DNA from: an uncultured Lachnospiraceae bacterium
Lineage (GTDB): Bacteria; Bacillota; Clostridia; Lachnospirales; Lachnospiraceae
DNA: 37,083 nucleotides
Assembly (NCBI GenBank): GCA_947589095.1
Contig: CANQBX010000038.1
Location: forward strand, 1-37,083
Direction of reading: 5' to 3'
The translations under genes and the position numbers were made by a program. The notes under the pieces were generated by a model that had not been told where the DNA came from, did no database searches, and was given only the letters and a program-made list of their open reading frames with translations. How positions within the stretch are numbered: position 1 is the first letter of the stretch; each line of letters starts with the position of its first letter. Below are positions 11,903 to 36,092 of the stretch, piece after piece.

Positions 11903-11939
11903 GTACCTTGACAGTATCATATGTTTATCCGGGCAGCCG
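11903..11939 (+). repeat. 37-bp block upstream of toxin 1, identical to the block upstream of toxin 2
   Basis: The block starting GTACCTTGACAGTATC recurs without a mismatch at 12207-12243. It contains TTGACA but no -10 box at the proper distance, so it may be a 5' UTR or regulator site rather than a plain promoter. It is better conserved than the coding parts. Confidence 0.85.
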
Positions 11940-11988
11940 GGGGACGTGCTCTTGCCCATTCCGAGTCTTGCGGAAGGGGGTGATTATT

Positions 11989-12072
11989 GTGAGTACATAC
12001 GAGGAATTCATGGTATTACTGACGATGGGGATTTTCATTGTTGCAATTCTGAGTCTGGAAAATAAGAAATAG
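11989..12072 (+). CDS. Type I toxin, Hol_Tox-like small membrane peptide (27 aa), copy 1
   Basis: GTG start preceded by AAGGGGGTGA at 5-6 bases. It encodes VSTYEEFMVLLTMGIFIVAI then LSLENKK: a short acidic head, one hydrophobic helix and a lysine end. This matches the 'putative holin-like toxin' peptides of Firmicutes (PF16935), which belong with TxpA/BsrG-type type I toxins acting at the membrane. The stop codon lies inside the terminator hairpin, and a convergent antisense RNA is predicted, the usual type I toxin-antitoxin layout. Gene finders normally miss it because of its size and GTG start. Confidence 0.85.
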   Translation: MSTYEEFMVLLTMGIFIVAILSLENKK

Positions 12073-12103
12073 CCGTCTTGATCTTGGGAAACGGCTATTT
12101 CTT
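12064..12103. terminator. Bidirectional hairpin terminator of toxin-antitoxin unit 1
   Basis: A perfect 13-bp stem: AAGAAATAGCCGT (12064-12076) and its complement (12091-12103), with a 14-base loop. The toxin TAG stop is inside the left arm. A- and T-rich flanks suit termination in both directions, so the toxin mRNA and antisense RNA would overlap here. Confidence 0.8.
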
Positions 12104-12160
12104 AGTTATTGATTTCACCGGGGCGGGTGAGATAGAGTCACCTTACCGGCTGTCTTGATA
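12064..12160 (-). ncRNA. Predicted antisense RNA antitoxin 1
   Basis: Transcription from the minus-strand promoter at 12166-12194 and termination at the hairpin would give an RNA of about 95 nt complementary to the 3' end of toxin mRNA 1. This is the arrangement of RatA/TxpA and SR4/bsrG. Ends are estimated. Confidence 0.65.
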
Positions 12161-12165
12161 AGCAT

Positions 12166-12194
12166 ATTATACTACTCAAATAAGAAAAAAGCAA
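12166..12194 (-). promoter_or_regulatory. Antisense (antitoxin) promoter 1
   Basis: On the minus strand: TTGCTT (-35, 12189-12194), exactly 17 bases, then a perfect TATAAT (-10, 12166-12171). The second unit repeats the same design. Confidence 0.75.
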
Positions 12195-12206
12195 TAAAAA
12201 AATGCA

Positions 12207-12243
12207 GTACCTTGACAGTATCATATGTTTATCCGGGCAGCCG
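12207..12243 (+). repeat. 37-bp block upstream of toxin 2
   Basis: Identical to 11903-11939, 304 bases downstream. It marks the tandem duplication of the whole toxin-antitoxin unit. Confidence 0.85.
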
Positions 12244-12295
12244 ATAGGGTGCGAATACCTCTGTTTCCGAGCCTGACGGAAGGGAGGCGTTTCGA

Positions 12296-12433
12296 ATGAG
12301 TACATACGAAGAATTCATGGTATTGCTTACGTGTGCGTTACTGATTGTTGCGATTCTAAATATAAGAAATAGCACTCCACGCTCCAGCCAAGCCAGGTGC
12401 TATTTCTTGACCCCGCAGGACGGGGACAAGTGA
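12296..12433 (+). CDS. Type I toxin copy 2, Hol_Tox-like, frameshifted C-terminus (45 aa)
   Basis: ATG start with GGGAGG upstream. It begins MSTYEEFMVLLTCALLIVAI, nearly the same as copy 1. Just before the conserved end the frame is shifted, so the AAG AAA TAG ending of copy 1 is still in the DNA (12364-12372) but is read out of frame. Translation runs through the terminator hairpin to a TGA at 12431, adding a polar 20-residue tail. The peptide may be inactive or altered; the antisense gene is intact. Confidence 0.75.
   Translation: MSTYEEFMVLLTCALLIVAILNIRNSTPRSSQARCYFLTPQDGDK
12364..12408. terminator. Bidirectional hairpin terminator of toxin-antitoxin unit 2
   Basis: Perfect 12-bp stem: AAGAAATAGCAC (12364-12375) and GTGCTATTTCTT (12397-12408). 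Its base shares AAGAAATAGC with unit 1, while the loop differs. Confidence 0.8.
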
Positions 12434-12911: not shown

Positions 12912-13136
12912 TTATTTCTTTGGATATTCCGCCACCACATCACTGGCGCCCGTGATATAGTCCATGGATACATTATAGTGTCTGGCAAGAATCAGAAGAC
13001 TGTCTACCGGAATTCTCGTCTTGCCGCTTTCATAGTCAGCATAAGTACGCTGGCCTACGTGAAGCAGGTCGGCGACTTTTTGCTGCGTCAGAGTATGATC
13101 TTCCCGGATGTCCCGGATTCGTTCATTGTATTTCAT
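12912..13136 (-). CDS. XRE-family repressor, copy 1
   Basis: A 74-residue protein, almost entirely one HTH domain: LTQQKVADLLHVGQRTYADY (helices 2-3) and then SGKTRIPVDSLLILARHYNV. The start MKYNERIRDIRED has AGAGGTG just upstream. It is transcribed away from the vsr-DISARM operon and shares a 190-bp control region with it. A palindrome in the operon promoter spacer is the likely operator, so it is probably a repressor of both the operon and itself. Its paralogue at 29915-30139 differs at only 8 of 74 residues by eye. Confidence 0.9.
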   Translation of the reverse strand: MKYNERIRDIREDHTLTQQKVADLLHVGQRTYADYESGKTRIPVDSLLILARHYNVSMDYITGASDVVAEYPKK

Positions 13137-13180: not shown

Positions 13181-13209
13181 TTGACAAATAGAGTTATAAA
13201 CTCTAAAAT
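13181..13209 (+). promoter_or_regulatory. Promoter and operator of the vsr-DISARM operon
   Basis: TTGACA (13181-13186), a 17-base spacer, and TAAAAT (13204-13209). The spacer holds the palindrome TAGAGTT-ATA-AACTCTA (13189-13205, perfect 7-bp arms), placed so a bound repressor would block RNA polymerase. A TATACT box on the opposite strand near 13155 probably starts the divergent XRE gene. Confidence 0.8.
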
Positions 13210-13329: not shown

Positions 13330-13746
13330 ATGGATAGACATACTCCGGAACAGCGCCGTAAGAACATGCAGGCTGTTAAGTGCCGGGATACGTCAATAGA
13401 GGTTTTACTGCGCAGAGAACTGTGGGCAAGAGGCATTCGTTATCGAAAAAATGTAAAAAGTATTTGCGGAAAACCTGATATTGCCTTTAAGGGGAAAAAA
13501 GTGGCGGTTTTTTGTGACAGCGAGTTTTTTCACGGTTATGACTGGGAGCATAAGAAGGATGAAATAAAGAGTAACAGAGATTTTTGGATTCCGAAAATTG
13601 AAAGAAATATAGAAAGAGATAAAGAGGTAAATGAGGCATTAGAAGCAGACGGATGGGTAGTTCTTCGCTTTTGGGGGAATGAAATAAAAAGAAATGTAAG
13701 TGCATGTGCCGATAGGATTGTGAGTACTCTTGAGGACAAGACATAA
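13330..13746 (+). CDS. vsr: Very short patch repair endonuclease (Vsr)
   Basis: A 138-residue Vsr-type endonuclease that nicks 5' of the T in T:G mismatches arising from 5-methylcytosine deamination. It begins MDRHTPEQRRKNMQAVKCRD, the family N-terminus, and has ELWARGIRYRKN, the KPDIAF strand with the metal-binding aspartate, and FCDSEFFHGYDW at the catalytic/zinc region. AAAGGAG precedes the ATG. The stop overlaps the ATG of the cytosine methyltransferase by one base, as expected for a repair partner of 5mC methylation. It is the first gene of the operon. Confidence 0.93.
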   Translation: MDRHTPEQRRKNMQAVKCRDTSIEVLLRRELWARGIRYRKNVKSICGKPDIAFKGKKVAVFCDSEFFHGYDWEHKKDEIKSNRDFWIPKIERNIERDKEVNEALEADGWVVLRFWGNEIKRNVSACADRIVSTLEDKT

Positions 13747-15179
13747 TGAATCTTAAAACTATAGATTTGTGTGCAGGTATTGGCGGAATCCGCAGGGGAT
13801 TTGAATTAGCCGGAGGTTATACGAATGTAGCGTCAGCAGAAACAGATGTGATGGCGTGTAAAACATATGAGCATCTATTCGGTGAAAACCCCTATAATGA
13901 TGTGACCAGTGAAGAATTCAAAAAGTATCTTCAAAGTCTTCATTATGATGTCCTTTTAGCTGGATTTCCCTGTCAGGCATTTAGCAGTGTCGGACTTCGA
14001 CAGGGGTTTGAAGATAAAACAAAAGGTACTATTTTTTTTGATATCGCAAAGATCATACGAATAACCTGTCCGAAAGTTATTTTTTTGGAAAATGTTCAAA
14101 ACCTTTTATCGCATGACGGAAAATCTACTTTTGCGACTATCGTGGATACGTTGGATCGGTAGCTGGATTATCATATTATCGGGATTACGCATGACGAAAA
14201 CGGCGAACCCCGATATAAGCGTTCGGCGTTTTTAAGAAATTCCTGTAATTACGGAATTCCGCAGAACAGACCAAGGGTATATATTGTCGCTTTCAGCCGG
14301 GCCTATTTTGGTAGGTATCTTTCTTTTTTGCCGTGGGAAACGCCGACTGAGAGAACGGGGACGGCAATATATAAAGACTTAAAAGACGTACTGGATAAAG
14401 AGGTCAGCCCAAAGTTCTTCTTATCGAAAGGCTATTTGGAAACTTTGGAAAAGCATATTGTGAGGCAGCATGAACGTGGCTACGGATTCGGATATCGGGT
14501 AGTAAATTCACAGAACATAGATCATCCTGTTGCCAACACGCTTTTGGCTACTGGAGGAGCCGGAAGGGAAAGAAATTTAATTTATGATCCTGCAAACGGA
14601 ATGAAATATGGCGGAATGGAACTGAAAGGGAAAAAGTCCCGGATAAACAGTAAATGTATCAGAACAATGACGCCTAATGAATGGGGAAGGCTTCAGGGAT
14701 TTATCGGTTATGCTTTTGTAGATAAAGACGGCGTTGATACGTTTTCATTCCCGCAGGAAGTATCAGATGTGCAGAAGTTCAAACAGTTTGGTAATTCCGT
14801 TACGATTCCGGTTGTTGAGGAGTTCGCGAAATTTATACAATACTGCTGCAATGAGATATATAAGAGATTATCGGCAGTTGAAAAACGCCTTTTTGGGATG
14901 TATGGGAACGAGTTCCTGATGTGTAAAAAGATATATTGTGCTTTGTCGGATACGCTGAGAGAAAAAACGTTAAATACATATTTTGATATTGTGCAACATT
15001 TTGAAAGTAATAAATTCCGGGTCAAAGAATTAGCATCGTACTTAAATGTATCATCGGTAAGAGCTTCACATATTGTATCCCAATTGGCAGAAGCCGGTTG
15101 CGTCCTTCGAAATACGGACGGTTCCTATTGTTTCAGGAATTTACAGTTTACAGATGACGGTGAAAGAAAAGGAGAATAA
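13746..15179 (+). pseudogene. drmMII: C5-cytosine DNA methyltransferase (DISARM DrmMII-like) with one in-frame TAG
   Basis: One frame runs from 13746 to 15179 with a single amber codon at 14160-14162. Before it: motif I DLCAGIGGIRRGFELAG, motif IV with the catalytic cysteine in GFPCQAFSSVG, and motif VI IFLENVQNL. After it, still in frame: LDYHIIGITHDENG, motif VIII QNRPRVYIVAF, and motif X QFGNSVTIPVVEEF. The C-terminal ~110 residues look like an added winged-helix segment. All catalytic motifs are intact, so either the stop is recent, it is read through, or it is a sequencing error. In DISARM class 2 this enzyme marks self DNA. A target-recognition region lies between motifs VIII and X. Confidence 0.88.
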
Positions 15180-15180
15180 A

Positions 15181-17778
15181 ATGGACGCAGTTCGGGAGGC
15201 TATGGGCAAAGTACTTCAAAAATGCGATATTTGTCTTAATGGAAATGTGATTTCAAAGGAACTGCTTCTTACGAAATTTTCCGAATTTGTTCTGTCTACC
15301 ATGGAAAAGAAGAAGCACAATATCGGTATTATACTTCATACAGGGTCAGCCTGTTTTGATGCGCTGCTGCTTTCGTGGACTGCGATTTCTGATATTCTTT
15401 ATAATAAAACGAGTACAGATGATGTGATTTTCTCTTTGGAGCCGGAAGATATTGTTCTGTATTACAGCGGAGCTGTCGGTCAAAGGTATTATTTCAAAGG
15501 ATTTGAAAGCGGTGATAACGGAAACACCTATGTGGTTTTGCAGCAGGATGATAAAAGTAAAAGAACTTTGGTTGGAAAGAAGCATTGGTCGCAAATCATT
15601 CCCTATAACGGCAATTCGATGTCGATGGACGGAAAAGGACTGCGAAGGGAAAGTAAAAAACGCTATGAATTTCTTAAGTCCGTGCTGGAGATGGAGGATT
15701 CCGATATTTCGCGTACTACAGATACTTCTACCGTAGTAGTGATGCCGCGTGATGAATCGAATGGACTGATAAACGGATTGTCATTCCGATTTGGCGGAAC
15801 GGATGTGAAACTGACGGAACTGGTTCCGATATCATACTATACGGAAAGCGGCTCGTATCCGTACGAAGGAAATCCTGCAAAAGCGGAGCCCGTCATTAAA
15901 ATTGCGGGAAATGTGTCTGTAGCGAGAAAATTAATGCTGCAGCGCAGCGGCAATAAAAATCTTGGTCTGGTCATTATGGGAAACGAAGCATATCGACGCG
16001 GGGAATCAGAAATACCGGAGCTTCTGTCAAGGCAGTCGATACAGTATATTTATTTGTGTTTGCACATTGATTCGGAGATGTCGGGGAAACTGATCAGCGA
16101 ATATGAGGATGCGGAAGTATTTGCCTGCACGAAGGATTTTTTGCTGTCGAACAGTCTTGAATCTGTTAATAAGAATTCTCTTACTTTGCAGTTGGATGAT
16201 CAGATCAACGCAATAATTGATAAAGAAATTAACGAGATAAGTATTCCCGGATTCCCGGATTGGGAAAGTTATAAGGCATTCCAGCAGGCAATGCTTTTTA
16301 TTAAATCTTCGGATTATTACGGAGAAGACAAAGATGATTTTGTTATTCAGGCATATTCATTAATGAACTTATTCTTGACTGCCGTGTTTTCCATCGAGGA
16401 ATTAGAGCGTTATATTGATGAGGGCAGGATTGCTAATATTGAAACGCCTGCACAGCGTTTTGCCCGGATTACTGCTTATAGTCGTGAGTTTCCGGAGCAC
16501 CTGAGGAAGAAGTCGGAGACGGTATTGGATATTCTGGAAACTGCATATATGCAGTTATATGAAAAATCAGACAAAGAAGAAGCGTTATTTCAAATATTAA
16601 AGGAAGCATACGGATCGGATGTTGTGATAGTAATACCGAAAGCATATTATGCGGTTCTTATTGAGAGTAAAATTCGTCAGTGCCTTCCGGATTATATAAA
16701 TCAAGTCGAAATAGTAACGTCCGGTCGATTTGATAACACTAGGCTGTATGATCTGATTGTTGTTGTCGGAAATATTTCAGAAACCCGTTTTGATGTTTTT
16801 CGGTGTCGCGCGTCCCGGGTGATCGATGTGCTGCTCTGCAATGCAGAAAGCTATAAGTTTAGGAAAAAGGCCCGTAATTCAAAAAAAGCAGAACATATTC
16901 TGAATCAGCGTTCCACAATTGAACTTGATGATGAATATGAAGAAACGCCGCTTGCGAATGAGGATGAAATAAATGCAGTTGAGAAAATCGATGAGGAGAT
17001 GAGTCGATTTAGTGATATGGCTTTTGTCAAATCGGTACATAGTTATGCCGGTTACGGTGACAGCAGATCCATGGCGGATGTCATCGCAGCGGTTAAGTTT
17101 GATACGGGAGAAAAAGCGCTTCTGTCTAAAAACTATAAAGCCTATGTGTTGGATGTGGAACAGAATCTTGTGAAGGAGGTCGGAGTAACGGATCTTCGCG
17201 AGGGAGATACGATAGTTTTTACGAGAAGTAGTTCCAAAACGCGGGACATAGTCGAATTTATTCTTCGGTATATGGTGGAAAACCAACTTCTGCCTGCTGC
17301 TGTTAACGAAGCGTATTACAGATCCAGGCAGTGGAAAACAACTTTAGTTGAATATATGAAGCGTACAGGGGATACCGCGAAGTCGATTGCGGAGAGAATG
17401 ATCAGAAACGGCGTATCCGTGCAGACGAATACGATAATGATCTGGCTGGATGAGGATGCGCATACGGTCAGACCGAGAAAAGAAGACTCGATTCAACAGA
17501 TTGCTTTGGTTGCCGGTGATGAGGAATTATTTGATCATTCCGGGGACTGTTATCGGGCAGGAACGGTCATTTACGGAGAACGGGAAAAAATTCGGGCTGC
17601 CATCGGACAGGCAATATTGCGAAAGATTACCGGTCAGGAGAGTGATAATGACCGGATTGCATCAATCGTATCGGATAAGCTAGAGGATGCCGCGGTTATT
17701 TTGAATATTGAAACGATTGTTCCTATAAATGAAAGCTTTCCGATTAACGTTGTAAACAGACCGCTGTCTGATTATTGA
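15181..17778 (+). CDS. drmE: DISARM class 2 protein DrmE-like
   Basis: An 865-residue protein starting MDAVREAMGKVLQKCDICLN one base after the methyltransferase stop, with AAAAGGAG ahead. It has no signal peptide and no clear Walker motifs. Segments such as DVVIVIPKAYYAVLIESKIR (residues ~480-500) and the later LYDLIVVVGNISETRFDVF suggest Rossmann-like helicase-relative folds. The identification as DrmE rests mainly on size and on position between a C5-methyltransferase and drmA/drmB, which is diagnostic of class 2 DISARM; the family itself has no known activity. The residues 'FIPINVVNRPLSDY'-like end shows a complete C-terminus. Confidence 0.72.
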   Translation: MDAVREAMGKVLQKCDICLNGNVISKELLLTKFSEFVLSTMEKKKHNIGIILHTGSACFDALLLSWTAISDILYNKTSTDDVIFSLEPEDIVLYYSGAVGQRYYFKGFESGDNGNTYVVLQQDDKSKRTLVGKKHWSQIIPYNGNSMSMDGKGLRRESKKRYEFLKSVLEMEDSDISRTTDTSTVVVMPRDESNGLINGLSFRFGGTDVKLTELVPISYYTESGSYPYEGNPAKAEPVIKIAGNVSVARKLMLQRSGNKNLGLVIMGNEAYRRGESEIPELLSRQSIQYIYLCLHIDSEMSGKLISEYEDAEVFACTKDFLLSNSLESVNKNSLTLQLDDQINAIIDKEINEISIPGFPDWESYKAFQQAMLFIKSSDYYGEDKDDFVIQAYSLMNLFLTAVFSIEELERYIDEGRIANIETPAQRFARITAYSREFPEHLRKKSETVLDILETAYMQLYEKSDKEEALFQILKEAYGSDVVIVIPKAYYAVLIESKIRQCLPDYINQVEIVTSGRFDNTRLYDLIVVVGNISETRFDVFRCRASRVIDVLLCNAESYKFRKKARNSKKAEHILNQRSTIELDDEYEETPLANEDEINAVEKIDEEMSRFSDMAFVKSVHSYAGYGDSRSMADVIAAVKFDTGEKALLSKNYKAYVLDVEQNLVKEVGVTDLREGDTIVFTRSSSKTRDIVEFILRYMVENQLLPAAVNEAYYRSRQWKTTLVEYMKRTGDTAKSIAERMIRNGVSVQTNTIMIWLDEDAHTVRPRKEDSIQQIALVAGDEELFDHSGDCYRAGTVIYGEREKIRAAIGQAILRKITGQESDNDRIASIVSDKLEDAAVILNIETIVPINESFPINVVNRPLSDY

Positions 17779-17795
17779 TTAGAGGAGAATGCCGT

Positions 17796-20700
17796 ATGAG
17801 TATAACAAAAGAATATCTCAAAGCCAGAGAAGAGTATATTAAACTGATCAGGCGTGAACTTTACGGACCCGGGTCAGAGGTGTCTTTGCCGGATGTGGAA
17901 CACGAATTGATCACGAATTCTCCTGATATCCGGTATTCGATCGGTATTTTATTTCCGAGAAATAATAAGATGAATGCGGATAACAATGATTCGGTGCGTT
18001 TGGAAACGTCTGCTTCCGAGACGGAAGATGACATGGACGAAACGAGTACAGAATCTGCCATGCCATCGGAATCGGATGATGCAGTTACGCCTGCGGAAGA
18101 GGACAATCTGGACGAAGAGATCAGCCTTGCAGCGCAGAACATGCCGTCGTCTTTTGGTCTGACGTTTTTGGTATCTGAAGTTCCGGAGACATTAAGCTGT
18201 AAAGTTGATTTTGCTACATACCGACATACTGTTTTACGGGACTGCCGAATTCCCTTTTTTCCGGAATCTCCGGAGACATATGCTGTTCCGGAACAATTAT
18301 CTTCTTATGTTTTCTTTGATAAGAAAGAAAGCAGCCTGAAGCTTAGAGTTGCGTTAACCCGCAAACAGGTGAAGGAGCTTAGTGAAAAAGATTTTATAGA
18401 CGGAGAAGAATACGGGATCTTCTCAGCTATGTATAAGCTTTGCGATCAACTCAGAGGCGGATATGTCAGGGAGCCGCATTCAGCGGAACCGATTGTAAAT
18501 TTTAACGGAAAAGATTATGCCGATGACAACAAAAACCTCGATGGAACAAGCGCTAAAATAACGGCGCTGAAAAGAAAGATCGGCGAGAAGCTTTTTTCTG
18601 TCACGATCATGCTTGTTAATGATGAGGAAGGAAAATCGAATGGAGCGAGATGCATTTTCCAGCCGACGATAAGGATCGAGTCGAAGGATAATGGTTTCGC
18701 GTTCAGAGAGTATTCCGCTTTGACGGATTTTAATTCTCTGGACGATGAAGAACAGTCTTTGGAACTCCAGTACAGGAACAAAAAGGTTTACGGAAGCGGG
18801 TTAGGTACCTCTGTCAAATGGGAAATTGATGAAAGCGGACACGGATCCATTTATAATGATTTTTTTCCGGAGGTCGAGATTCCGCCTATGGATTTCTCGG
18901 TTCCTAAGGATTATGGCATTGACAGATCAGTGCTGTCAATGAGATATCTGTCTGATTTGGACAGAACTGCATCAAGATCACAAAAACTTTCGGGATTACA
19001 AAAAATTGTCGATGCATACGGGCGATGGATCGATTATTTAGAAAAAAAGAAATCTGATTTGGCTCCTCAGTATCAAAAAGCAGCGGGGAGCAACATTATC
19101 GGGTGCCGTTCCGCGCAGGAGCGGATGAATGGCGGGCTTCGTATATTAGAAACAAACGATGCGGCGTGGACAGCGTTTACGCTTGCGAACAGGGCCATGT
19201 TCATGCAGCGCGTCCATCTGAGATTTCAGGATAAAACCTCAAATATTGACAGATATCCCGATGATACGGAAGTTTCCGCATTTATGGAGTCTGTTGATTA
19301 CGCTGCGAATGCCGGACTTACCGGAGATAATTATGAGTGGCGTTTGTTTCAAATCGCTTTTATCCTGATGGATATTGATGCTATTGTTAAGGATGATTCT
19401 CTGCAGCGGGAGATCGTGGACTTAATATGGTTTCCTACCGGCGGTGGAAAGACGGAAGCTTATCTGGGCCTGACTGCGTTTACGATCTTTTACCGTAGAC
19501 TGGCTCATGCGGCGGAATCGGGCGGAACTACGGTAATAATGCGGTATACGCTGCGGCTTTTGGCTGCGCAGCAGTTTACTAGGGCATCTACGCTCATTTG
19601 CGCCTGTGAATATATACGTCAGGATGCCGTTTCAAGACGTCCGAAATACGGAAAGTATCCCTTGGGCGACTCAGAGATCACGATTGGCCTTTGGATCGGA
19701 AATGATCATACGCCGAACAAGAATGAAGACGCAAAGAAGAAGCTTAAGGCGTTGCTGGATGCTCAGGGCAGCAATCTCCAGTATGTCAAAGAACAGAATA
19801 ACAAGTTCCAGGTGTTAAAGTGTCCGTGGTGCGGTACAAAAATGGTAAAAGACTATGTAAAGGGAAAAGCCAAAGGACTTTTTGGTTACAGGATGCGGAA
19901 CAACAGGCATTTTGAACTATTCTGTCCGCAGGAAAGCTGCTTTTTCAATCTTAAGCTTCCGATCCAGATCGTTGATGAGGAGCTATACGCCTGTCCTCCC
20001 ACGCTGCTTTTCGGGACAGTCGATAAGTTTGCGATGATTCCGTGGAAAAAGGAAATCGGTGCCTTTTTTGCCGCCTGTTCGGAAAACAGGACGCCGGATC
20101 TCATTATTCAGGATGAATTGCATCTTATTTCCGGTCCGTTGGGAACCATGGTTGGTCTGTATGAGGCAGCCATTGATGCGCTGTGCAGGAAGAATGGAAA
20201 ATGTACAAAAATAATTGCTTCGACAGCTACCATAAGAAGAGCGAAAGAACAGTGCTCGGCATTGTATAACCGTCAGGTCAGCCAGTTCCCACACCCGGCG
20301 CTGGATGCGGAGGATTCTTTTTTTGCGAGAGAATCACAGATCAACTATGAGAATAATATTTACGGGCGGAAATACATCGGGTTGATGCCATCCGGAAAAA
20401 CAAAGGCAATGATGGAAGTCAGGTCGATAGCGGCGCTGCTGCAGAAGATTAATACGATGGAACTACCGGACGAGATTAAGGATAAGTATTGGACGCTTAC
20501 GGTTTATTTTAACAGTTTGAAGGATTTAGGCAATTGTTCAATGTTGGTTGATGATTCTGTAAGAGATTTTATTAGGAGAACTGCTATCAGGCTTGGAGAC
20601 TTAAAGGATGCCCGAAAGATTGGGAGGGCTGATGAACTGACAAGCCGCATTAATACTACGCAGCTTAATGAAACATTGGACAAGCTTGAGAAACTCAGCT

Positions 20701-21443
20701 ATTCCAAAGAGAATATTGCAAATAAGAGATATCCGTCCAATGTATTGCTCGCTACAAATATGATTTCGGTAGGTATTGATGTGGCGCGCCTGAATATAAT
20801 GCTTCTGGTCGGGCAGCCGAAACTGACGAGCGAATATATTCAGGCGTCAAGCCGGGTAGGGCGCTCTTATCCGGGCATGGCGTTCGTCATGTACGATGGT
20901 TCGAAGAGCAGGGATCGGTCTCACTATGAGCAGTTTAAGGCGTATCATGAATCTTTTTATAAGTTTGTCGAACCTACGGGAGCGACGCCTTTTTCTAAAC
21001 CTGCGAGAGACCGCGCACTCCATGCTGTTATGATCGCTATGATGCGGATGCTTGAAAATGAATTAAGTTCGGAAAAGGGGGCGGCAAAATTCTCACGAAG
21101 TGAGTATAAAGACAGGGTATCTCAGCTTAAGGATTATATTATTCACAGGGCGGTTGAAATCTCGTCGCGTCTGAATTCCGCTATGAAAGATGATGCCGCT
21201 GAAATGGCTGATGAAATAGATATGATATTTGAAAAATGGGAACAGTTGGCTGAAAACTACGATGAGGAGCATTTTTACTACGGGGAAAAATTCATGGCCA
21301 AGACTCCCGACGACGGAGAAGGCCGGTTACTGAAGCCCTTTAATACAAGCAGAAATGACACTGCATTCGATACAATGACATCCATGAGAAATGTGGACTC
21401 GACGGTAGCGGGCAATATACTGATTTGGGAGGAGGGTCAATAA
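17796..21443 (+). CDS. drmA: DISARM helicase DrmA-like
   Basis: A 1215-residue SF2-type helicase. Walker A is IWFPTGGGKTEAYLGL (residues ~544-559), Walker B is IIQDELHLISGPLG (~770), motif III is ASTATIRRAKEQ (~808), and motif VI is IQASSRVGRSYPG (~1010-1022), with LLATNMISVGIDVARL just before it. A cysteine pair group (CPWCGTKM, then CPQESCFF) between the RecA lobes may bind zinc. The N-terminal 200 residues are acidic and unclassified. In characterised DISARM, DrmA with DrmB recognises and loads on phage DNA. The start at 17796 follows AGAGGAG; the drmE stop is 17 bases upstream. Confidence 0.88.
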   Translation: MSITKEYLKAREEYIKLIRRELYGPGSEVSLPDVEHELITNSPDIRYSIGILFPRNNKMNADNNDSVRLETSASETEDDMDETSTESAMPSESDDAVTPAEEDNLDEEISLAAQNMPSSFGLTFLVSEVPETLSCKVDFATYRHTVLRDCRIPFFPESPETYAVPEQLSSYVFFDKKESSLKLRVALTRKQVKELSEKDFIDGEEYGIFSAMYKLCDQLRGGYVREPHSAEPIVNFNGKDYADDNKNLDGTSAKITALKRKIGEKLFSVTIMLVNDEEGKSNGARCIFQPTIRIESKDNGFAFREYSALTDFNSLDDEEQSLELQYRNKKVYGSGLGTSVKWEIDESGHGSIYNDFFPEVEIPPMDFSVPKDYGIDRSVLSMRYLSDLDRTASRSQKLSGLQKIVDAYGRWIDYLEKKKSDLAPQYQKAAGSNIIGCRSAQERMNGGLRILETNDAAWTAFTLANRAMFMQRVHLRFQDKTSNIDRYPDDTEVSAFMESVDYAANAGLTGDNYEWRLFQIAFILMDIDAIVKDDSLQREIVDLIWFPTGGGKTEAYLGLTAFTIFYRRLAHAAESGGTTVIMRYTLRLLAAQQFTRASTLICACEYIRQDAVSRRPKYGKYPLGDSEITIGLWIGNDHTPNKNEDAKKKLKALLDAQGSNLQYVKEQNNKFQVLKCPWCGTKMVKDYVKGKAKGLFGYRMRNNRHFELFCPQESCFFNLKLPIQIVDEELYACPPTLLFGTVDKFAMIPWKKEIGAFFAACSENRTPDLIIQDELHLISGPLGTMVGLYEAAIDALCRKNGKCTKIIASTATIRRAKEQCSALYNRQVSQFPHPALDAEDSFFARESQINYENNIYGRKYIGLMPSGKTKAMMEVRSIAALLQKINTMELPDEIKDKYWTLTVYFNSLKDLGNCSMLVDDSVRDFIRRTAIRLGDLKDARKIGRADELTSRINTTQLNETLDKLEKLSYSKENIANKRYPSNVLLATNMISVGIDVARLNIMLLVGQPKLTSEYIQASSRVGRSYPGMAFVMYDGSKSRDRSHYEQFKAYHESFYKFVEPTGATPFSKPARDRALHAVMIAMMRMLENELSSEKGAAKFSRSEYKDRVSQLKDYIIHRAVEISSRLNSAMKDDAAEMADEIDMIFEKWEQLAENYDEEHFYYGEKFMAKTPDDGEGRLLKPFNTSRNDTAFDTMTSMRNVDSTVAGNILIWEEGQ

Positions 21444-21444
21444 T

Positions 21445-23799
21445 ATGGCGTTGGAGTCTGCAAAAAAAATACAGTTAAATCGTATTACATATTCAGTTCG
21501 TGCATCCCAGGCCGTTTTGCAGTACGGAGTCGGAGCCATGGTTGATTTTCAAAGCCAGACATTAATGACTGCAGCCCCAGAATATTGGGAAAATCAGGTG
21601 ATTGAAATACATGATGAGCGCTTGGAAAAGGTGCTGCATGTGGATTATTTCGGACTTCCGGGCGATCGGGATGAGATGCGCTATCGGGAGGGAATTTCCT
21701 ATGTGCGTTTCCCTGAATGGTATTTTTGTCCTAAATGCAGAAAATTTCAATCGATTAAAGACTGGGTAAGCGATTACAAAAAACAAGCGAAGCAAAGAAC
21801 TTTGGATAAGGATCCTGATATGGTTAAATATATGAGGTGTCCAAAATGCGGTCAGGATCTTGTAGTTACACGTATTATTACCGCCTGCGAGTGCGGCCAT
21901 ATTGATGATTTTCCGTGGGTGAAGTGGGTTCACTGTCAAAATATGGGCGGAGCAAAACCGATATGTCCGCAACCGTCATTAACATTTAAGACGAGTGCGT
22001 CATCAATGGAAGGTCTGGAAGGTTTGACCGTATCCTGTGAAGCATGCAAGGCCAGAGCCACATTAAAAGGCGCTTTTGATAGCAATAAATTGCAGGATCT
22101 GGATGAAAAGTATGGGGATCGGTATAATTTCAGATGCACGGGAAGACATCCGTGGAAGCATATAAAGGAGAATTGCGGAAAATATCCGAAAGTATTGCAG
22201 AGGGGAGGTTCTTCTGTTTATTTTCCTGTTACGGAAAGCTCTCTGGTTATTCCGCCGTATTCAAGTCTTGTCACGAAAAAGGTTGAGCAAAGCATTGCGT
22301 TTTCCAAATGTAAGGATGCTATAGCTGATTATAAAAAGAATGCGGCGATTCCAAAGACAATTTTGACTGACGTGATCAGAAATGCGATTGGAAAATATGT
22401 TCAGGACATATCGCTGGAAATAGGGGTGGGTGCGGATAAGGTAACGCCGATATTGGAAAGAAAATGGATGGCTCCTGAAAATAAAGAAGAATATACAACC
22501 ATGAGCGTCAAATACCGGGCGGAAGAATATGAGGCGTTAAGCGGCGAAATATCCGTGCCGACAGAAGAATACGGTGATTTTGTGCGCGAGGAGACAGATA
22601 TAAAGGAGTATGCGATTCCGTATGTAAAAAATGTCTCTTTAATACACAAAGTCCGAGAGGTACAGGCTTTGGTTGGCTTCTCTCGTTTGAAACCGGCGGA
22701 ACCTGCCGTAAACAGTGAAGATTCTCAACATATTGTTTCCGTAAAGCAGTCCGACTCAAATTGGTATCCTGCGTATGAAGTTCGGGGAGAGGGAATATTT
22801 ATCGAGTTTGATGAAACGGCAATTTCCGAATGGCAGGAGAAACACCCGGAAATACAGCGCAGAGTTGATACGATTAACGAGAATTACTGCGACTCTTATT
22901 TCGGCGAATTAAGACCGAGGGAAATAACCTCGAAGTTTCTTCTGCTGCACACAATATCCCACGCGTTGATCAAGCAGCTGAGTTTTGAATGCGGGTACAG
23001 TATTGCTTCGTTAAAAGAGAGACTGTACTGCAGCGAGCCGGCGGAGGGCAAACAGATGGCGGGCATCCTTATTTATACTGCGAGCGGTGATTCCGAAGGT
23101 ACAATGGGCGGATTGGTCCGACAGGGACGTTCAGATATATTTCCGGGCATATTCAGGAAAGCCATGGAGACGGCAGTGGCTTGTTCCAATGACCCGGTAT
23201 GCAATCTGAGTAGGGGGCAGGGGAGAGATATGCTGAACCTGGCTGCCTGCTATTCCTGCTGCCTGGTACCGGAAACCAGCTGCGAGGAATTTAATGTCTT
23301 TTTGGACAGGGGAACAATTGTCGGCACTTATGAAAACAGGGATATGGGCTTTTATGCCGGACAGCTTTTTAACGGCGGTTCTTGGAAGAGTACGGATATT
23401 CGTACAGAGCAAGGCAGGACTGACAGGCAGAACAAAAATAAATTATATGTCACGGATACGGGCATTTCCCTGGCAGATATTTCGTATCGCGAGATCTGGA
23501 ACGACTTAAAATCCTGGTCAGATGAGGAGAAGGAAATTACATTACTGTCTGATCTGGCAAAAGCGGACAGAGAGTTTTCTTGCAAAGAGAAACCGCATAA
23601 AGATTGTCAGTTCCGGATGAGCGGAGACACCGAACAATATGCCTGCGATCTGTATTGGGAAAAATCGGAAGTCGCGTTTTTTACGGCTGATAATGAAGAC
23701 TGTTATCTGGCGGCAAAAAACAGTGATATCAGGTGTTTTTACAGTTTGGATGCGGAGACGACGCCCGAATCAATCCTGAATTCGTTAAAGGAGAATTGA
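21445..23799 (+). CDS. drmB: DISARM DUF1998 protein DrmB-like
   Basis: A 784-residue protein starting two bases after the drmA stop. The N-terminal part has zinc-ribbon pairs (CPKCRKF near 94, CPKCGQDL near 132, then CECGHIDDFPWVKW). The C-terminal DUF1998 domain is recognised by LLHTISHALIKQLSFECGYS (~495-515), AGILIYTASGDSEGTMGGL, and NLAACYSCCLVPETSCEEFN (~595-615). DrmB forms the core complex with DrmA in DISARM. The SNDPVCN and CYSCC cysteines suggest a further metal site. It is translationally coupled to its neighbours. Confidence 0.88.
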   Translation: MALESAKKIQLNRITYSVRASQAVLQYGVGAMVDFQSQTLMTAAPEYWENQVIEIHDERLEKVLHVDYFGLPGDRDEMRYREGISYVRFPEWYFCPKCRKFQSIKDWVSDYKKQAKQRTLDKDPDMVKYMRCPKCGQDLVVTRIITACECGHIDDFPWVKWVHCQNMGGAKPICPQPSLTFKTSASSMEGLEGLTVSCEACKARATLKGAFDSNKLQDLDEKYGDRYNFRCTGRHPWKHIKENCGKYPKVLQRGGSSVYFPVTESSLVIPPYSSLVTKKVEQSIAFSKCKDAIADYKKNAAIPKTILTDVIRNAIGKYVQDISLEIGVGADKVTPILERKWMAPENKEEYTTMSVKYRAEEYEALSGEISVPTEEYGDFVREETDIKEYAIPYVKNVSLIHKVREVQALVGFSRLKPAEPAVNSEDSQHIVSVKQSDSNWYPAYEVRGEGIFIEFDETAISEWQEKHPEIQRRVDTINENYCDSYFGELRPREITSKFLLLHTISHALIKQLSFECGYSIASLKERLYCSEPAEGKQMAGILIYTASGDSEGTMGGLVRQGRSDIFPGIFRKAMETAVACSNDPVCNLSRGQGRDMLNLAACYSCCLVPETSCEEFNVFLDRGTIVGTYENRDMGFYAGQLFNGGSWKSTDIRTEQGRTDRQNKNKLYVTDTGISLADISYREIWNDLKSWSDEEKEITLLSDLAKADREFSCKEKPHKDCQFRMSGDTEQYACDLYWEKSEVAFFTADNEDCYLAAKNSDIRCFYSLDAETTPESILNSLKEN

Positions 23800-23801
23800 T
23801 A

Positions 23802-25508
23802 ATGGCGATAATGATTCCCGAAAGACCGCGCAGTTTTGAGGCTGCAAGCCAGGAAGGGCTTATGTTCGACGCCCTCGCTCTGCTGCCGGACGACTACTAT
23901 GTGTTTCATTCCTTCCGTATCACCGACGTACATGACAATACCTTTCGTGAAAGCGAGACAGATTTTGTTATTCTGAATCGCTTAAAGGGTATAATCTGTC
24001 TGGAGGCTAAAGCCGGGCAGGTACAGTACCGGGACGGCTACTGGCTGTACGGAAGCGGGATCCCGATGCATAACGGCGGACCGTTCAATCAGGCGAGCGC
24101 CAACAAATATAAACTGATGAAATATATTTCGGACAGCAATGTCTCGTTCATTCTCAGGAAGTGCAAATTCTTTCATGCAGTTTGGTTCCCGGCCGTCAGC
24201 AGCGAGAGGCTCCAGAGTATGAATTTGCCTTCCGAAGGAGATAAGGCGCTTGTTCTGACAGAGGAGGCGTTAAAAAGTCCTGAGGAGTTTCTGAGTAGGA
24301 TTTACGCGATAGAAGTCCCGGGTAAAGTGGAAACAGATATGAGCGAGGCAGAGTGCAGGAGGCTGGTTCGGGAGATCTTCTGTCCGCAGTTCAATGTAGT
24401 ACCTTCGGCTGCATTTGATACGGAACTGAAGAAAATCGTATTTCACAGATTATTAAAAGAGCAGGCCCATATTCTGGACTTTCTGGACGAACAGCTGACA
24501 GCTGCTGTTAACGGCGCGGCCGGAACGGGAAAAACAATGATAGCGGTTGAAAAGGCACAGAGGCATGCGAATGCCGGTGAGAGCGTTCTCTTTCTGTGTT
24601 TCAATGTGAAGCTGAGAGAGTATTTGGAAAAGGCATACCCGAACAGCCTGATCGCATATTATACGGTTGCCGGTTTTGCCTGCAAAATGTGCAGCACGGA
24701 CTCTCCGAATTATGCGCTGCTAAAAAGTAAACTGGAGGATTATTATATTTCCGAGACGTTTCCGTATAAGCATGTGATAATAGACGAGGGGCAGGATTTC
24801 GGAAACGAAGTGATCGAAGAAACCGATATTTTGCAGCTGCTTCACGATATTATTGCCGATACATGTCAGGGCGGCACATTTTATGTTTTTTATGATCGCC
24901 TGCAGTTGGTACAGGCGAGGGAAATGCCTAAGTTTATCGGGGACCTGGACTGCAGGCTGACTCTTCATCGAAACTGCAGAAATACGGAAAATATTGCGAT
25001 AACCTCGTTGCGACCGATATCCGAGCGAAAGCCGAAACTGTTTGAGGGTGCCGTTAAAGGACCTCCTGCGAAACTCTATTTTTGTGAGGATCAGGAGGAG
25101 GAGAAGGAACGCATAAATTGCATTATTGATGGGCTCAGTGCCGATCGCTTCAAAGATGTTGTTATTCTGACATGTAAGATAGAAACAGCAAGCGTTCTGA
25201 ACGGTGAGGTCAGGGACGGCAAATTCAGAGATAAATATCTATTTACTACGTGCAGGAAATTTAAGGGTCTGGAGGCTGATGCGGTAATTCTGACCGATGT
25301 AGACAGGTCTGCATTTGACCCGGAAAATATACTGCTTTATTATGTCGGGACTTCCCGGGCCCGAATTCGACTGGATATCGTAGCTAATCTGAGCGACAGC
25401 GACTGTACGGAGATCCTTTACGATACGTTAAATGTTAAGGGGAAGGTCCGGCGGGGCAGGAAAGAATTGTCTGCGGCGCTTAATGCAATCGGTGTTTTGA
25501 ATATATGA
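23802..25508 (+). CDS. NERD nuclease-domain / SF1 (UvrD-like) helicase fusion, in the drmC position
   Basis: A 568-residue protein starting 2 bases after the drmB stop. The N-terminal NERD (nuclease-related) domain shows a PD-(D/E)XK core: Asp54 in SETDFVILNR, then Glu68 and Lys70 in ICLEAKAG. The second part is an SF1 ATPase: Walker A VNGAAGTGKTMIAVEKA (~235-251), Walker B VIIDEGQDF (~325), a C-terminal CRKFKGLEADAVILTDVD, and YYVGTSRARIRL. Standard DISARM has a phospholipase-D nuclease (DrmC) after DrmB; no HxK(x4)D motif is seen here. It plausibly supplies the nuclease function instead. It is the last gene of the tight operon. Confidence 0.85.
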   Translation: MAIMIPERPRSFEAASQEGLMFDALALLPDDYYVFHSFRITDVHDNTFRESETDFVILNRLKGIICLEAKAGQVQYRDGYWLYGSGIPMHNGGPFNQASANKYKLMKYISDSNVSFILRKCKFFHAVWFPAVSSERLQSMNLPSEGDKALVLTEEALKSPEEFLSRIYAIEVPGKVETDMSEAECRRLVREIFCPQFNVVPSAAFDTELKKIVFHRLLKEQAHILDFLDEQLTAAVNGAAGTGKTMIAVEKAQRHANAGESVLFLCFNVKLREYLEKAYPNSLIAYYTVAGFACKMCSTDSPNYALLKSKLEDYYISETFPYKHVIIDEGQDFGNEVIEETDILQLLHDIIADTCQGGTFYVFYDRLQLVQAREMPKFIGDLDCRLTLHRNCRNTENIAITSLRPISERKPKLFEGAVKGPPAKLYFCEDQEEEKERINCIIDGLSADRFKDVVILTCKIETASVLNGEVRDGKFRDKYLFTTCRKFKGLEADAVILTDVDRSAFDPENILLYYVGTSRARIRLDIVANLSDSDCTEILYDTLNVKGKVRRGRKELSAALNAIGVLNI

Positions 25509-25773: not shown

Positions 25774-26820
25774 ATGCTGTTACCTGAAAGTCTAATATAT
25801 GCAACTATGGAGGATGCGAGTGCCGGCTGCGCACAAGTTAATATTTATTGCGCTGCAGATCTTCGGGCTGAGATAGCTTCGCGTTTTACGGAGATTTTTA
25901 ATGAAAAATACGAAGCTATAAAGGATACAATCATAAGATATGTGAGGGCCCATATCGAAGATGCAGAAAATGCGGAGGCGGAGGATGTGTACCCCTTTTT
26001 TGGTGCGCACACAGAAGACTATGGCGTCTGTTTTTCATTCGATCCCCGAAAACTGTATTATGGTGATTTTGTCAATGCAAATTATGTTTTGTTGGAAACA
26101 TTAAAGACGATAAAGCAGCAATATCCATCTATCAGGTATGAAGGATATGTAGCTTGCTGTATCTTCGATAAGTACGGGGGCGAAGCTTGTCAATATGAGA
26201 TATCATCGGAAGAGACAGAAAACGAGGATGATATCGTGTACGATTTTGTTGGCGCCAGTCTTGCTTTCGAATTGAAATACGGCTCAGCATGGGATGAGTT
26301 GTATTATCGATTAGATGACGCAGATGAAAATGAGTTCAAGAAGATTATTAAAGTGTTCCACGCCTATTCCCAATGGGTGCCGCCAGACTCAATAGACAAG
26401 CTTATCGCGCTTTCTGAAAAGGTAGATAAGAATATAAAAGAATCTCTGGAGAAATTCGCGGAAGCCATCCGGGCGGGCGAAGATGTTGAAATAGAAGAAA
26501 AATCAGAATATGAAGGCTGGCAGCCGCCGGATGGATACATGGAAGCGCTTGATATGTTCACAATGGCAGGAGAAATAAGCGGAAATACATTGAACTTCAA
26601 TGAGCCGGTGTCTTCCGACGAAGCTTTTGGACTTGTTATTGAGAAAGCTGAAGCCGGAGACGCGGAGGCAAAATTTACAGCGGGGAAATATTTTATTGCC
26701 GACCACCTGGAGGAAGAGACCGAAAGAGCGATCCGCTGGATTCGGGAAGCGGCCGAAGCCGGCATAGAAGCAGCGAAGGAATATATGGACGAGCACAGTG
26801 AAATGTTTAGGCCGGCATAA
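25774..26820 (+). CDS. Hypothetical protein with C-terminal Sel1-like repeat (348 aa)
   Basis: GGAGGA is 7 bases before ATG 25774. The N-terminal ~200 residues are acidic and unclassified (YPFFGAHTEDYGVCFSFDPR, then SIRYEGYVACCIFDKYGGEA). The C-terminal ~60 residues form one Sel1/TPR-like helical pair (EAFGLVIEKAEAGDAEAKFT, then ERAIRWIREAAEAGIEAAKE). No signal peptide, catalytic motif or membrane segment is seen. A scaffold or inhibitor role is possible. It lies outside the tightly packed DISARM operon, behind the decayed small gene. Confidence 0.75.
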   Translation: MLLPESLIYATMEDASAGCAQVNIYCAADLRAEIASRFTEIFNEKYEAIKDTIIRYVRAHIEDAENAEAEDVYPFFGAHTEDYGVCFSFDPRKLYYGDFVNANYVLLETLKTIKQQYPSIRYEGYVACCIFDKYGGEACQYEISSEETENEDDIVYDFVGASLAFELKYGSAWDELYYRLDDADENEFKKIIKVFHAYSQWVPPDSIDKLIALSEKVDKNIKESLEKFAEAIRAGEDVEIEEKSEYEGWQPPDGYMEALDMFTMAGEISGNTLNFNEPVSSDEAFGLVIEKAEAGDAEAKFTAGKYFIADHLEEETERAIRWIREAAEAGIEAAKEYMDEHSEMFRPA

Positions 26821-26886
26821 TAAGGCGTTCCTTGATTTTTAAAAATCGTAACTTCGAATAGACAATCAAATGGAAGGTGACAGAGC

Positions 26887-27897
26887 TTGCGATATGTGAT
26901 CCGGGACGAAAAATATCATTTCTGGTCTGCTTTTGATACGGAGACAGGAGCCTATGTGCGTACCGGTATTCTTGACAGAAATGGAAAGGACACCGGTGTG
27001 GATCCTTTTATGGCTTCTTACCCGCATCTGATCGATGTTGGTATCATGGGTCATTGTGTCCACGGCAAAACAGGACTTTGCGCGAAGGCGGGGATCGGCT
27101 GCTATCAAAGCGGTATGCTTGTGGAACAGCCTGATATGACAGTTGAGGACTTCCGGTGGATTACCGGGCAGTCATCCGGCAGATGCAATCAGTTCGCTCT
27201 GGGCGGCAGGGGCGACCCTGACCAGCATGAAAACTTTGAAGAGATCCTGATGATTTGCCGGGAGTATAACATCGTGCCTAATTTTACTACCTCTGGCTAT
27301 GGCATGACTCCCCAGATTGCAGACTTGTGCAAAAAATACTGCGGCGCCGTTGCTGTCAGCTGGTATAGAAACGAATATACACAAAAGGCCATTCGGCTGC
27401 TTCTGGATGCCGGCGTAAAGACAAATATTCATTATGTGCTGGGCAAAAACAGCATTGATATATTGGTGCTTGAGGATGTTTCGAAACTGGCGCAATTCTC
27501 AAAGAACATTGCATCGATAAACGACATATCGAAAATCACTATGGACCGAAATCACAGTGCGTGGGGCGAATTTTCAGAAGAGGTTGCAGATAATGATCCG
27601 GAATTATGTGAATTAGCACAAAAGGTTAATAACTCTTCAGGAGACGAGCAGGAAACAGCTTTGGCAGAAATGCTCGCTTATATCCGCAAGCCGTCCTCAA
27701 TGAGCGGATTTAGTCGCTTTGGGGAGGATCATGACGACTTCCGATACAAATGGAATGGCGACTGGAATGATTTGCTGGCTTTAGCGAAACGACTATGGAG
27801 CGGTTATGGAGCTGACGAAGAGAGGGGAAGGGAACACGATGAAATTGATTTCACTCGTGGAATTGTCGAGTCATACGCAGAATACGATCTGAAATAA
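26887..27897 (+). CDS. Radical-SAM-like protein with unusual cysteine spacing; possibly chimeric
   Basis: TTG start with GGAAGGTGA about 8 bases upstream. The N-terminal half reads IDVGIMGHCVHGKTGLCAKA, GIGCYQSG, then FALGGRGDPDQHENFEEIL and the TIM-barrel-like VPNFTTSG and KTNIHYVLGKNSID. The cysteines fit C-x7-C-x6-C instead of the common CxxxCxxC, and GGRGDP replaces the usual GGEP. After HYVLGKNSID (~195) the sequence no longer looks like a radical-SAM barrel; it becomes charged and ends FTRGIVESYAEYDLK. A deletion-fusion of two genes would explain this. The substrate is unknown. Confidence 0.55.
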   Translation: MRYVIRDEKYHFWSAFDTETGAYVRTGILDRNGKDTGVDPFMASYPHLIDVGIMGHCVHGKTGLCAKAGIGCYQSGMLVEQPDMTVEDFRWITGQSSGRCNQFALGGRGDPDQHENFEEILMICREYNIVPNFTTSGYGMTPQIADLCKKYCGAVAVSWYRNEYTQKAIRLLLDAGVKTNIHYVLGKNSIDILVLEDVSKLAQFSKNIASINDISKITMDRNHSAWGEFSEEVADNDPELCELAQKVNNSSGDEQETALAEMLAYIRKPSSMSGFSRFGEDHDDFRYKWNGDWNDLLALAKRLWSGYGADEERGREHDEIDFTRGIVESYAEYDLK

Positions 27898-29725: not shown

Positions 29726-29860
29726 GCGTATACCTCCTCTGCTGCTTCGCGCAGACAACATGCATCCGCGCAACTACGGGTTTCATCATGGGATCCACCG
29801 GGGAATGCCCGATCAGATGCCAGATACAGACAGGAAAAGAATTCCTGTCGATGTGCTTAT

Positions 29861-36009: not shown

Positions 36010-36078
36010 AATGACATCACAGCAGTGCACTGGCGGTCGATTACCTCCGGCGAAGCGATGGCGATGGCAATATCATAA
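36010..36078 (+). pseudogene. 3' end fragment of a mobile-element gene
   Basis: Immediately after the preceding stop, another frame reads VHWRSITSGEAMAMAIS and stops at 36076-36078, just before the TnpV ribosome site. Its codon use is GC-richer than the defence genes. It looks like the tail of a transposon gene cut by the island junction. Confidence 0.35.
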
Positions 36079-36092
36079 TGGAGGAAAAAGAC

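Follow-up and report, generated by a model that had tools for sequence, protein, structure and literature searches.

The DNA analyzed in this study, hereafter the window, is the whole of contig G000:C38 (37,083 bases), part of a 97.6% complete genome of 4.1 Mb in 192 contigs (G denotes genomes, C contigs and L the loci fetched). On its plus strand, positions 13330–25508 carry an operon that encodes, in this order, a Vsr-type mismatch endonuclease, a C5-cytosine methyltransferase, the DISARM proteins DrmE, DrmA and DrmB, and a fusion of a NERD nuclease with a superfamily 1 (SF1) helicase, referred to below as the NERD-helicase. The DrmB of this operon carries a C-terminal tail, and the association of this tail with the NERD-helicase encoded next to it is the main subject of this report. 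The features of the operon and of the region directly upstream are listed here.

12912–13136, minus strand: divergent regulator of the XRE/HTH_3 type (HTH_3, 54.7 bits), by its position a candidate regulator of the operon
13181–13209, plus strand: sigma-70-like promoter TTGACA-17-TAAAAT (11/12 consensus match)
13330–13746, plus strand: Vsr-type mismatch endonuclease, 138 amino acids (aa) (TIGR00632, 149.3 bits, cut-off 97.85; PF03852, 97.6 bits)
13746–14162, plus strand: C5-cytosine methyltransferase, N-terminal piece (PF00145), ended by an in-frame TAG at 14160–14162
14163–15179, plus strand: C5-cytosine methyltransferase, C-terminal piece in the same frame (PF00145); the relative in L039 is uninterrupted
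15181–17778, plus strand: DrmE, 865 aa (NF038316, 607.1 bits, cut-off 80; Pfam DrmE_C, 36.6 bits, cut-off 27)
17796–21443, plus strand: DrmA, a superfamily 2 helicase of the YprA/MrfA type (PADLOC DrmA, 710.2 bits)
21445–23325, plus strand: DrmB core (DUF1998/MZB), approximately residues 1–627 (NF038324, 460.1 bits, cut-off 240; MZB, 42.0 bits)
23326–23799, plus strand: DrmB C-terminal tail, approximately residues 628–784, a candidate docking domain for the NERD-helicase
23802–25508, plus strand: NERD nuclease–SF1 (UvrD-like) helicase fusion, 568 aa (PF08378, 35.5 bits, cut-off 22.1; UvrD_C_2, 33.4 bits)

The genes of the operon are separated by 17 bases at most or overlap by one base. The vsr frame shares one base with the start of the methyltransferase, whose frame runs to 15179, and the DrmE gene opens at 15181. 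A gap of 17 bases lies between the end of DrmE (17778) and the first ATG of DrmA (17796), with a TTG frame opening at 17775. DrmA ends at 21443 and is followed by DrmB (21445–23799) and the NERD-helicase (23802–25508). This gene order, the shared strand and the tight spacing had been reported in a preliminary description of this DNA and were confirmed. The single promoter proposed there may correspond to the sigma-70-like site at 13181–13209, but this site is only suggestive evidence, because the number of such sites between 12800 and 26000 (28) was close to the mean of shuffled sequences (26.3).

The preliminary description had interpreted the operon as a variant of class 2 (type II) DISARM, a class that was reportedly introduced by Ofir et al. 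in 2018. Matches to the NCBIfam models of DrmE and DrmB and to the PADLOC model of DrmA were all strong, and the 865-aa protein that had been called unclassified was identified as DrmE. The PADLOC DrmE model matched the same protein weakly (22.4 bits), and NF038325 scored DrmA at 942.2 bits, slightly below its cut-off of 950. As anticipated, the matches that PADLOC and Pfam listed for the proteins of the operon included no phospholipase D-type family. The same operon, with proteins 93–100% identical, occurs in a sister genome (G114, L023/L039), the metagenome-assembled genome of an uncultured Lachnospiraceae bacterium. On the basis of these sequence comparisons, we regard the identities of the operon genes as strong assignments. 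The presence of DrmE, DrmA and DrmB agrees with the earlier class 2 interpretation, which did not account for the interruption of the methyltransferase or for the fact that the NERD-helicase is not specific to DISARM; its close relatives are also encoded directly behind DruE in Druantia-like operons.

The nuclease and helicase motifs of the window NERD-helicase are intact. In an alignment of 16 rows, residues E18, D54, E68-x-K70 and Q97 of the NERD domain as well as the Walker A and DEGQD motifs were invariant, and the equivalent motifs persist in 16 further aligned relatives, 13 of which lie outside the close group (the NERD-helicases that reach 580 bits or more against the A2 profile). We take the E...D...ExK...Q residues of the NERD domain to be catalytic. 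A scan of the genome contigs for NERD-helicases yielded 16 loci. The gene is located behind DrmB in DISARM-type operons in eight of these (L023–L027 and L030–L032, with L026 cut upstream and L031 divergent), and the drmB–NERD neighborhood pointed out in the preliminary description thus recurs across genomes. In six loci it follows a DruE-like protein (L029 and L033–L037; confirmed by PADLOC in L029 and L033 and called by similarity in L034–L037), and in the other two (L028, L038) the partner is reduced to a C-terminal fragment that matches the tail profile described below. In relatives, the NERD gene starts 2–6 bases past the stop coordinate of DrmB or DruE, or overlaps it slightly.

When 348 genomes of the same phylum were searched for DrmB, 11 including that of the window were over the cut-off. 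Five of the ten others have a NERD-helicase beside DrmA/DrmB (after DrmB in G769 and G723, before DrmA in G808, G700 and G895). Two (G1006 and G1024) have an adjacent match to the DrmC model, at 132 and 86 bits and both below the cut-off of 133; neither NERD nor DrmC was present in the stretch seen of two more (G1008, and G841 with its contig end directly above DrmA), and one (G1012) ends at the contig edge. Two DrmE searches, of 299 and 391 genomes, gave eight distinct genomes over the cut-off. A NERD-helicase is adjacent in three of them (G000, G114 and G451, the genome of L025) and was not seen within the 15–20 kb fetched in four (G260, G085, G668 and G541), while its adjacency was left uncounted in G269.

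A DrmC search over 25 handles (24 distinct genomes) gave no match beside the operon in the nine close-group NERD-DISARM genomes. DrmC encoded elsewhere in the window genome was considered and rejected, the matches to the DrmC model NF038319 being weak (≤39.1 bits, cut-off 133) and located on other contigs. According to the available text of PMC12458937, DrmC is typically located after DrmB, and the NERD-helicase, which sits after DrmB, therefore occupies the usual place of DrmC. The earlier statement that the NERD-helicase replaces DrmC is borne out in this sense; it should be read as positional and not as an established functional substitution, because DrmC itself is often missing from DISARM operons. 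DrmC is also described as dispensable and as not co-purifying with DrmAB in the accessible part of PMC9142583, the source of the DrmAB structure, which likewise states that DrmC is often missing.

Plasmid and virus records contained more distant DrmA/DrmB operons with NERD (for example L073, L074, L076 and L171–L173; 7 of 21 plasmid matches were inspected and 5 of 7 IMG/VR loci annotated) as well as NERD genes that lack a partner of this kind (L070, L075). The seven NERD relatives from IMG/VR are 24–30% identical over long stretches, and one match of 40% spans 51 residues. The phage collection held no match to the NERD-helicase. In a tree of 35 NERD sequences, the DISARM and Druantia forms were intermixed in one clade of 18 rows (support 100/100), and across the entire tree the Druantia label required four changes, all of them forced by supported branches. 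Therefore, the partners of the NERD-helicases have apparently been exchanged. In L152 (3906–9502, G443), DruE stops early and profile positions 1–83 are missing from the NERD-helicase, a pattern that a deletion across the junction between the two genes would produce. In the DISARM-like operon with a divergent NERD at L150 (7497–11304), an HSP70-like protein and a UvrD helicase precede DrmA.

The DrmB proteins of DISARM-2 operons are 779–789 aa long when a NERD-helicase is the next gene (n = 8) versus 617–652 aa without NERD (n = 4); DrmB of the divergent locus L031 is 835 aa long, but where it starts is uncertain. The additional tail (residues ~628–784 of the window DrmB) is not covered by the DrmB models of NCBIfam and PADLOC and starts approximately where the match to the solved DrmB structure 7s9v (619 aa) ends. 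As a candidate identity, a degenerate Vsr-type nuclease domain reached an hhalign probability of 7.7% and is not claimed. A profile made from seven DISARM DrmB tails only was run over the open reading frames of the fetched loci, and matches were counted only if they reached beyond position 100 of the profile, as the core ends of tail-less DrmBs also match its first ~20 positions. This DISARM-only profile matched the C-termini of NERD-adjacent DruEs as well.

The tail was detected in 16 of 19 partners of close-group NERD-helicases versus 1 of 37 other DrmB and DruE proteins (nominal Fisher 3.7e-10) and, after removal of the seven training rows and the near-copy L023, in 8 of 11 versus 1 of 37 (nominal Fisher 3.7e-6), whereby both values ignore relatedness and the close group was tallied by hand. 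The 37 others comprise 10 DrmBs and one DruE with a divergent NERD as well as 11 DrmBs and 15 DruEs without NERD, meaning that none lies directly behind the gene in the stretch; a NERD before DrmA would be invisible in short loci such as L119 and L121. All 21 DrmBs without a close-group NERD lacked the tail. Duplicates were dropped before counting (L007 and L113 of the window; L008 and L039 of L023; L063 of L025; L085 of L148; L092 and L149 of L037; L094 of L152; L096 of L153; L009 of L043; L010 of L044), as were short loci of genomes re-fetched as L150–L164, frames truncated at the edge of a locus, fragments (L028, L038, the first piece of L087, L097, L098, L104 and L118), L157/L107, with only 166 bases of contig left behind DrmB, and L095, L165 and L072, which were missed by the core search. 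L037 and L152 (truncated DruE) were counted as tail-less in the close group.

When 315 genomes of the order were searched later, nine had a NERD match, among them the window genome and the known G116. Three new close-group NERDs were obtained, behind DruE in G1289 and G1280 and behind DrmE-DrmA-DrmB in G1167 (DrmB of 781 aa), and the tail was present in all three partners (46–57 bits). For G1290 and G1041, which have distant NERDs on short contigs, the tail was not shown. Across the loci examined, the profile matches show that the tail occurs almost only where a close-group NERD-helicase is the next gene, be it on DrmB or on DruE, and the tail may represent a connection between these proteins and the NERD-helicase.

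We consider it probable that the window encodes a class-2-like DISARM system without DrmC, in which the NERD-SF1 helicase-nuclease is the effector and the DrmB tail holds or recruits it. In such a system, DrmAB would load onto unmethylated phage DNA ends or single-stranded DNA (ssDNA), as for Serratia DrmAB, the tail of DrmB (or of DruE) would serve as the socket that holds or recruits the NERD-helicase, and the latter would unwind and then cut the captured DNA. The 5-methylcytosine (5mC) methyltransferase would mark self DNA, and Vsr would repair the T:G mismatches left by deaminated 5mC. Serratia DrmAB is, according to the available text of PMC9142583, auto-inhibited and activated by 5'-overhang DNA, with a lower ATPase activity on methylated DNA. 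For Druantia III DruE, the accessible part of PMC13192584 describes loading on 3' ssDNA and a C-terminal region that rearranges on assembly. A broader proposal is that the docking tail and the NERD-SF1 helicase-nuclease form a portable cassette that plugs in trans into YprA-family helicases (DrmAB, DruE), supplying DNA destruction, a step without an assigned enzyme in systems that lack DrmC or a fused nuclease; we regard the arguments for and against this joint claim as evenly balanced.

Alternatively, the NERD-helicase could be an auxiliary or backup effector that is merely co-transcribed and acts alone, for example as a suicidal nuclease upon failure of the core, without any docking. A backup-effector role has been proposed for NERD nucleases in Type-2 BREX PglW (PMC12839542, in its available text), and divergent NERD-helicases are located before DrmA or after a DrmB without the tail. 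NERD relatives without a recognized YprA-type partner (L070, L155, L190 and L191) point in the same direction. However, the close-group gene lies directly behind DrmB or DruE, and the tail was found on the partner in 16 of 19 cases and then in three of three, which makes an effector acting alone an unlikely explanation. The YprA-type core might also use the tail for something else, such as dimerization or DNA binding, in which case tail and NERD gene would be linked through the common ancestry of entire operons. This would fit the weak tail-like C-termini of DruE-like proteins without NERD in L153 (17.7 bits) and, with a combined profile only, in L083 and L095, and also the higher-order assembly that the C-terminal region of Druantia III DruE mediates according to the accessible part of PMC13192584. 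Nevertheless, the tail is shared by two distinct cores, the split one of DrmB and the fused one of DruE, and is absent from the 21 DrmBs mentioned above, and we consider a purpose unrelated to NERD improbable.

Besides the relatedness ignored by the Fisher values and the tallying by hand, several observations weigh against a NERD effector held by the DrmB tail. The window DrmB tail had no match in Pfam. Divergent NERD-helicases adjoin short tail-less DrmBs in 10 of 10 cases, and gene association therefore needs no tail. The DISARM-only profile detected no tail in L031, L037 and L152 with its truncated DruE (the tail of L037 was matched by the combined profile, which itself includes L037). The tail was also not detected in the partner of the intermediate G1224 (NERD 517 bits, Druantia-type) or in the stretch of G1164, in which the NERD frame holds a stop and no partner was recognized. 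L153, from the window's own genome, is the sole exception among the 37 others. Tail and NERD distances across DISARM × Druantia pairs were correlated only modestly (r = 0.42; 143 of 5040 permutations as high). One NERD relative lies beside another helicase (L045, DpdF-like), and the four relatives named above, L070, L155, L190 and L191, have no recognized DISARM or Druantia partner. Finally, the interrupted methyltransferase may mean that the system is off in this genome.

The preliminary description had assigned the methyltransferase to the correct family but had treated it as one open frame, overlooking the in-frame TAG at 14160–14162, which is codon 139 of 478. PF00145 (DNA_methylase) matches both pieces (143.6 and 67.9 bits), and for the N-terminal piece PADLOC MTase_II outscored DrmMII (172.5 and 110 bits). 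The methyltransferase of the sister genome (L023/L039) is uninterrupted and has 477 aa. That the TAG might be explained by amber recoding was not supported, although no genome-wide search for suppressor tRNAs was made: the stops of the 17 other frames inspected were all TAA or TGA, but a small frame nearby (11989–12072) ends in TAG, which therefore works as a stop in this region. A possible consequence is that the operon is decaying or inactive in this genome, with the methyltransferase as a pseudogene and the other genes to follow, in line with the TAG itself and with the ordinary stop function of TAG in the nearby frame. In contrast, the remaining operon frames are open, the sister methyltransferase is intact, and the ratio of nonsynonymous to synonymous substitution rates (dN/dS; own Nei-Gojobori-type script, window versus sister genome) was 0.02–0.19 over the methyltransferase pieces, DrmE, DrmA, DrmB, the tail and NERD, which indicates purifying selection (NERD 0.11, DrmB tail 0.165; vsr without amino acid change). 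Decay of the operon is thus distinctly unlikely. Relaxed selection on the methyltransferase was likewise rejected, the values of its two pieces (0.02 and 0.19) being approximately at the level of the other genes. Since dN/dS is low across the operon, the loss of the methyltransferase, if real, would be recent, and the TAG, if real, is probably young. Its presence could indicate that self-marking was lost, that the assembly contains an error, or that a Vsr-methyltransferase fusion on contig C104, the second C5 methyltransferase of the genome, could supply the marking. This fusion (580 aa; G000:C104, L154 5804–7546) adjoins an AAA_15 ATPase and two frames that, judged by eye, resemble tyrosine recombinases. 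In an alignment inspected by eye, the target-recognition stretch of the DISARM methyltransferase was nearer to the C104 fusion than to E. coli Dcm.

Canonical Vsr nicks T:G mismatches at CTWGG, and its companion methyltransferase targets CCWGG. In the window, neither the residues around the Vsr active site nor the target region of the methyltransferase match those of E. coli Vsr and Dcm. A CCWGG specificity by analogy with Dcm was considered but not adopted, as the target-recognition stretch is, by eye, unlike that of the E. coli enzyme. Vsr directly precedes the methyltransferase in the window, L039, L067 (L024), L063 (L025), L065 (L027) and L069 (L032) and is on the opposite strand in L026; it was not found in the genome of L030, and none was seen in L187 (G1167). 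L041 contains a methyltransferase frame with a Vsr-like part. Vsr accompanies the methyltransferase and not NERD, because L040 has both Vsr and methyltransferase without a NERD-helicase. That Vsr guards against mutation from 5mC, as suggested earlier, is plausible.

The two genes after the operon (25774–27897) are ~99% identical to L039, with a synonymous divergence (dS) near 0, and the dS of vsr is 0.012. Within the operon interior, dS relative to L039 ranges from 0.12 to 0.37, with the maximum in the DrmB core. This mosaic suggests that the defense genes recombined between near-identical flanks. Further downstream are a PD-(D/E)XK family transposase (28502–29773, minus strand) and a TnpV transposon protein (36078–36479), which point to mobile DNA nearby. 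A 1546-aa DUF4011 helicase with an MTES_1575 nuclease domain (30252–34892; PADLOC PDC-S37, 1417 bits; anti-phage ProA model, 1257 bits, cut-off 1500) is probably a second defense gene of the island. Upstream of the operon, at 11903–12433, two tandem units each consist of an identical 37-nucleotide repeat and a frame for a small hydrophobic peptide (27 and 45 aa). The first peptide scored 23.2 bits with Hol_Tox, barely below the cut-off of 23.3, and the units may be a type I toxin-antitoxin-like pair. A scan of the window with Rfam gave no match at gathering scores.

The NERD helicase-nuclease is a concrete candidate for the enzyme with which DISARM destroys DNA, given its location beside DrmA/DrmB in five of ten same-phylum genomes and the matching partner tail in one group. 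A shared NERD effector would also link DISARM and Druantia. In the texts available from the open-licence literature, supplements excluded, neither DISARM nor Druantia was reported to contain NERD. Druantia III-like helicases mostly have no nuclease domain according to the accessible text of PMC12458937; the DruEs found here may belong to that branch. The present operon suggests that definitions demanding DrmC, such as the one in the available part of PMC9252829, would miss or mislabel such systems.

Among known systems, TALON also combines a YprA-family helicase and a NERD-type nuclease in one operon (PMC12458937, available text). TALON is of the ARMADA-like type, has TPR-CSD and TBP genes and is largely found in Chloroflexota, whereas the window has DISARM genes and a helicase-fused NERD; no Pfam match to TBP or TPR was obtained among the ten window proteins scanned, and the helicase is DrmA with a separate DrmB. 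In the accessible text of the same survey of YprA helicases (PMC12458937), NERD is mentioned only in TALON and in the title of a reference. The PADLOC model RTasNERD-Hel, which is associated with DRT systems, belongs to the same helicase-nuclease family as the window protein (181.3 bits); no reverse transcriptase models were among the PADLOC matches listed for ten window proteins. DISARM-like operons with a divergent NERD-helicase (L046, L073, L076, L150, L159, L162, L163 and others) resemble the window in having NERD beside DrmA/DrmB. Their NERD is 23–29% identical to the window protein, their DrmB is short and tail-less, their first genes are others, and NERD is sometimes located before DrmA.

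Druantia-type NERD operons (L029, L033–L037, L043, L044, L148, L185, L186 and L188) share with the window a close or near relative of the NERD-helicase right after the YprA-type helicase, and most of their partners carry the same tail, which the DISARM-only profile did not detect in L037 and L188. Unlike the window, their core is a single DruE (1586–1769 aa if complete; split in L043) without DrmE-DrmA-DrmB. DruE is preceded by a protein of 909–1404 aa, and those scanned (L033, L148) had no Pfam or NCBIfam match. No DruE was among the PADLOC matches of the window operon helicase, which is DrmA. A DruE-like gene is present elsewhere in the window genome, on G000:C6. This locus (L153, 4303–12723) encodes a DruE-like helicase of 2107 aa and, behind it, a UvrD-type helicase of 697 aa. 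The C-terminus of the DruE-like protein shows a weak resemblance to the tail of DrmB and also to the ZorE C-terminus (NF041791, 18.9 bits).

The closest known system is class 2 DISARM, for which the available text of PMC9252829 gives the PADLOC type II definition as DrmA, DrmB, DrmC, DrmE and DrmMII. Like this class, the window has DrmA, DrmB, a DrmE-family protein and a 5mC methyltransferase in one operon. It differs in the absence of DrmC, in having Vsr first and the NERD-helicase last, in a methyltransferase that is interrupted in the assembly, and in the C-terminal tail of ~155 residues on DrmB. Because DrmA, DrmB and DrmE of the definition were found, DrmC was not, and the interrupted methyltransferase is not clearly DrmMII, we do not file the operon as canonical type II DISARM. 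We regard it instead as a class-2-like variant, probably with the mode of action of that class.

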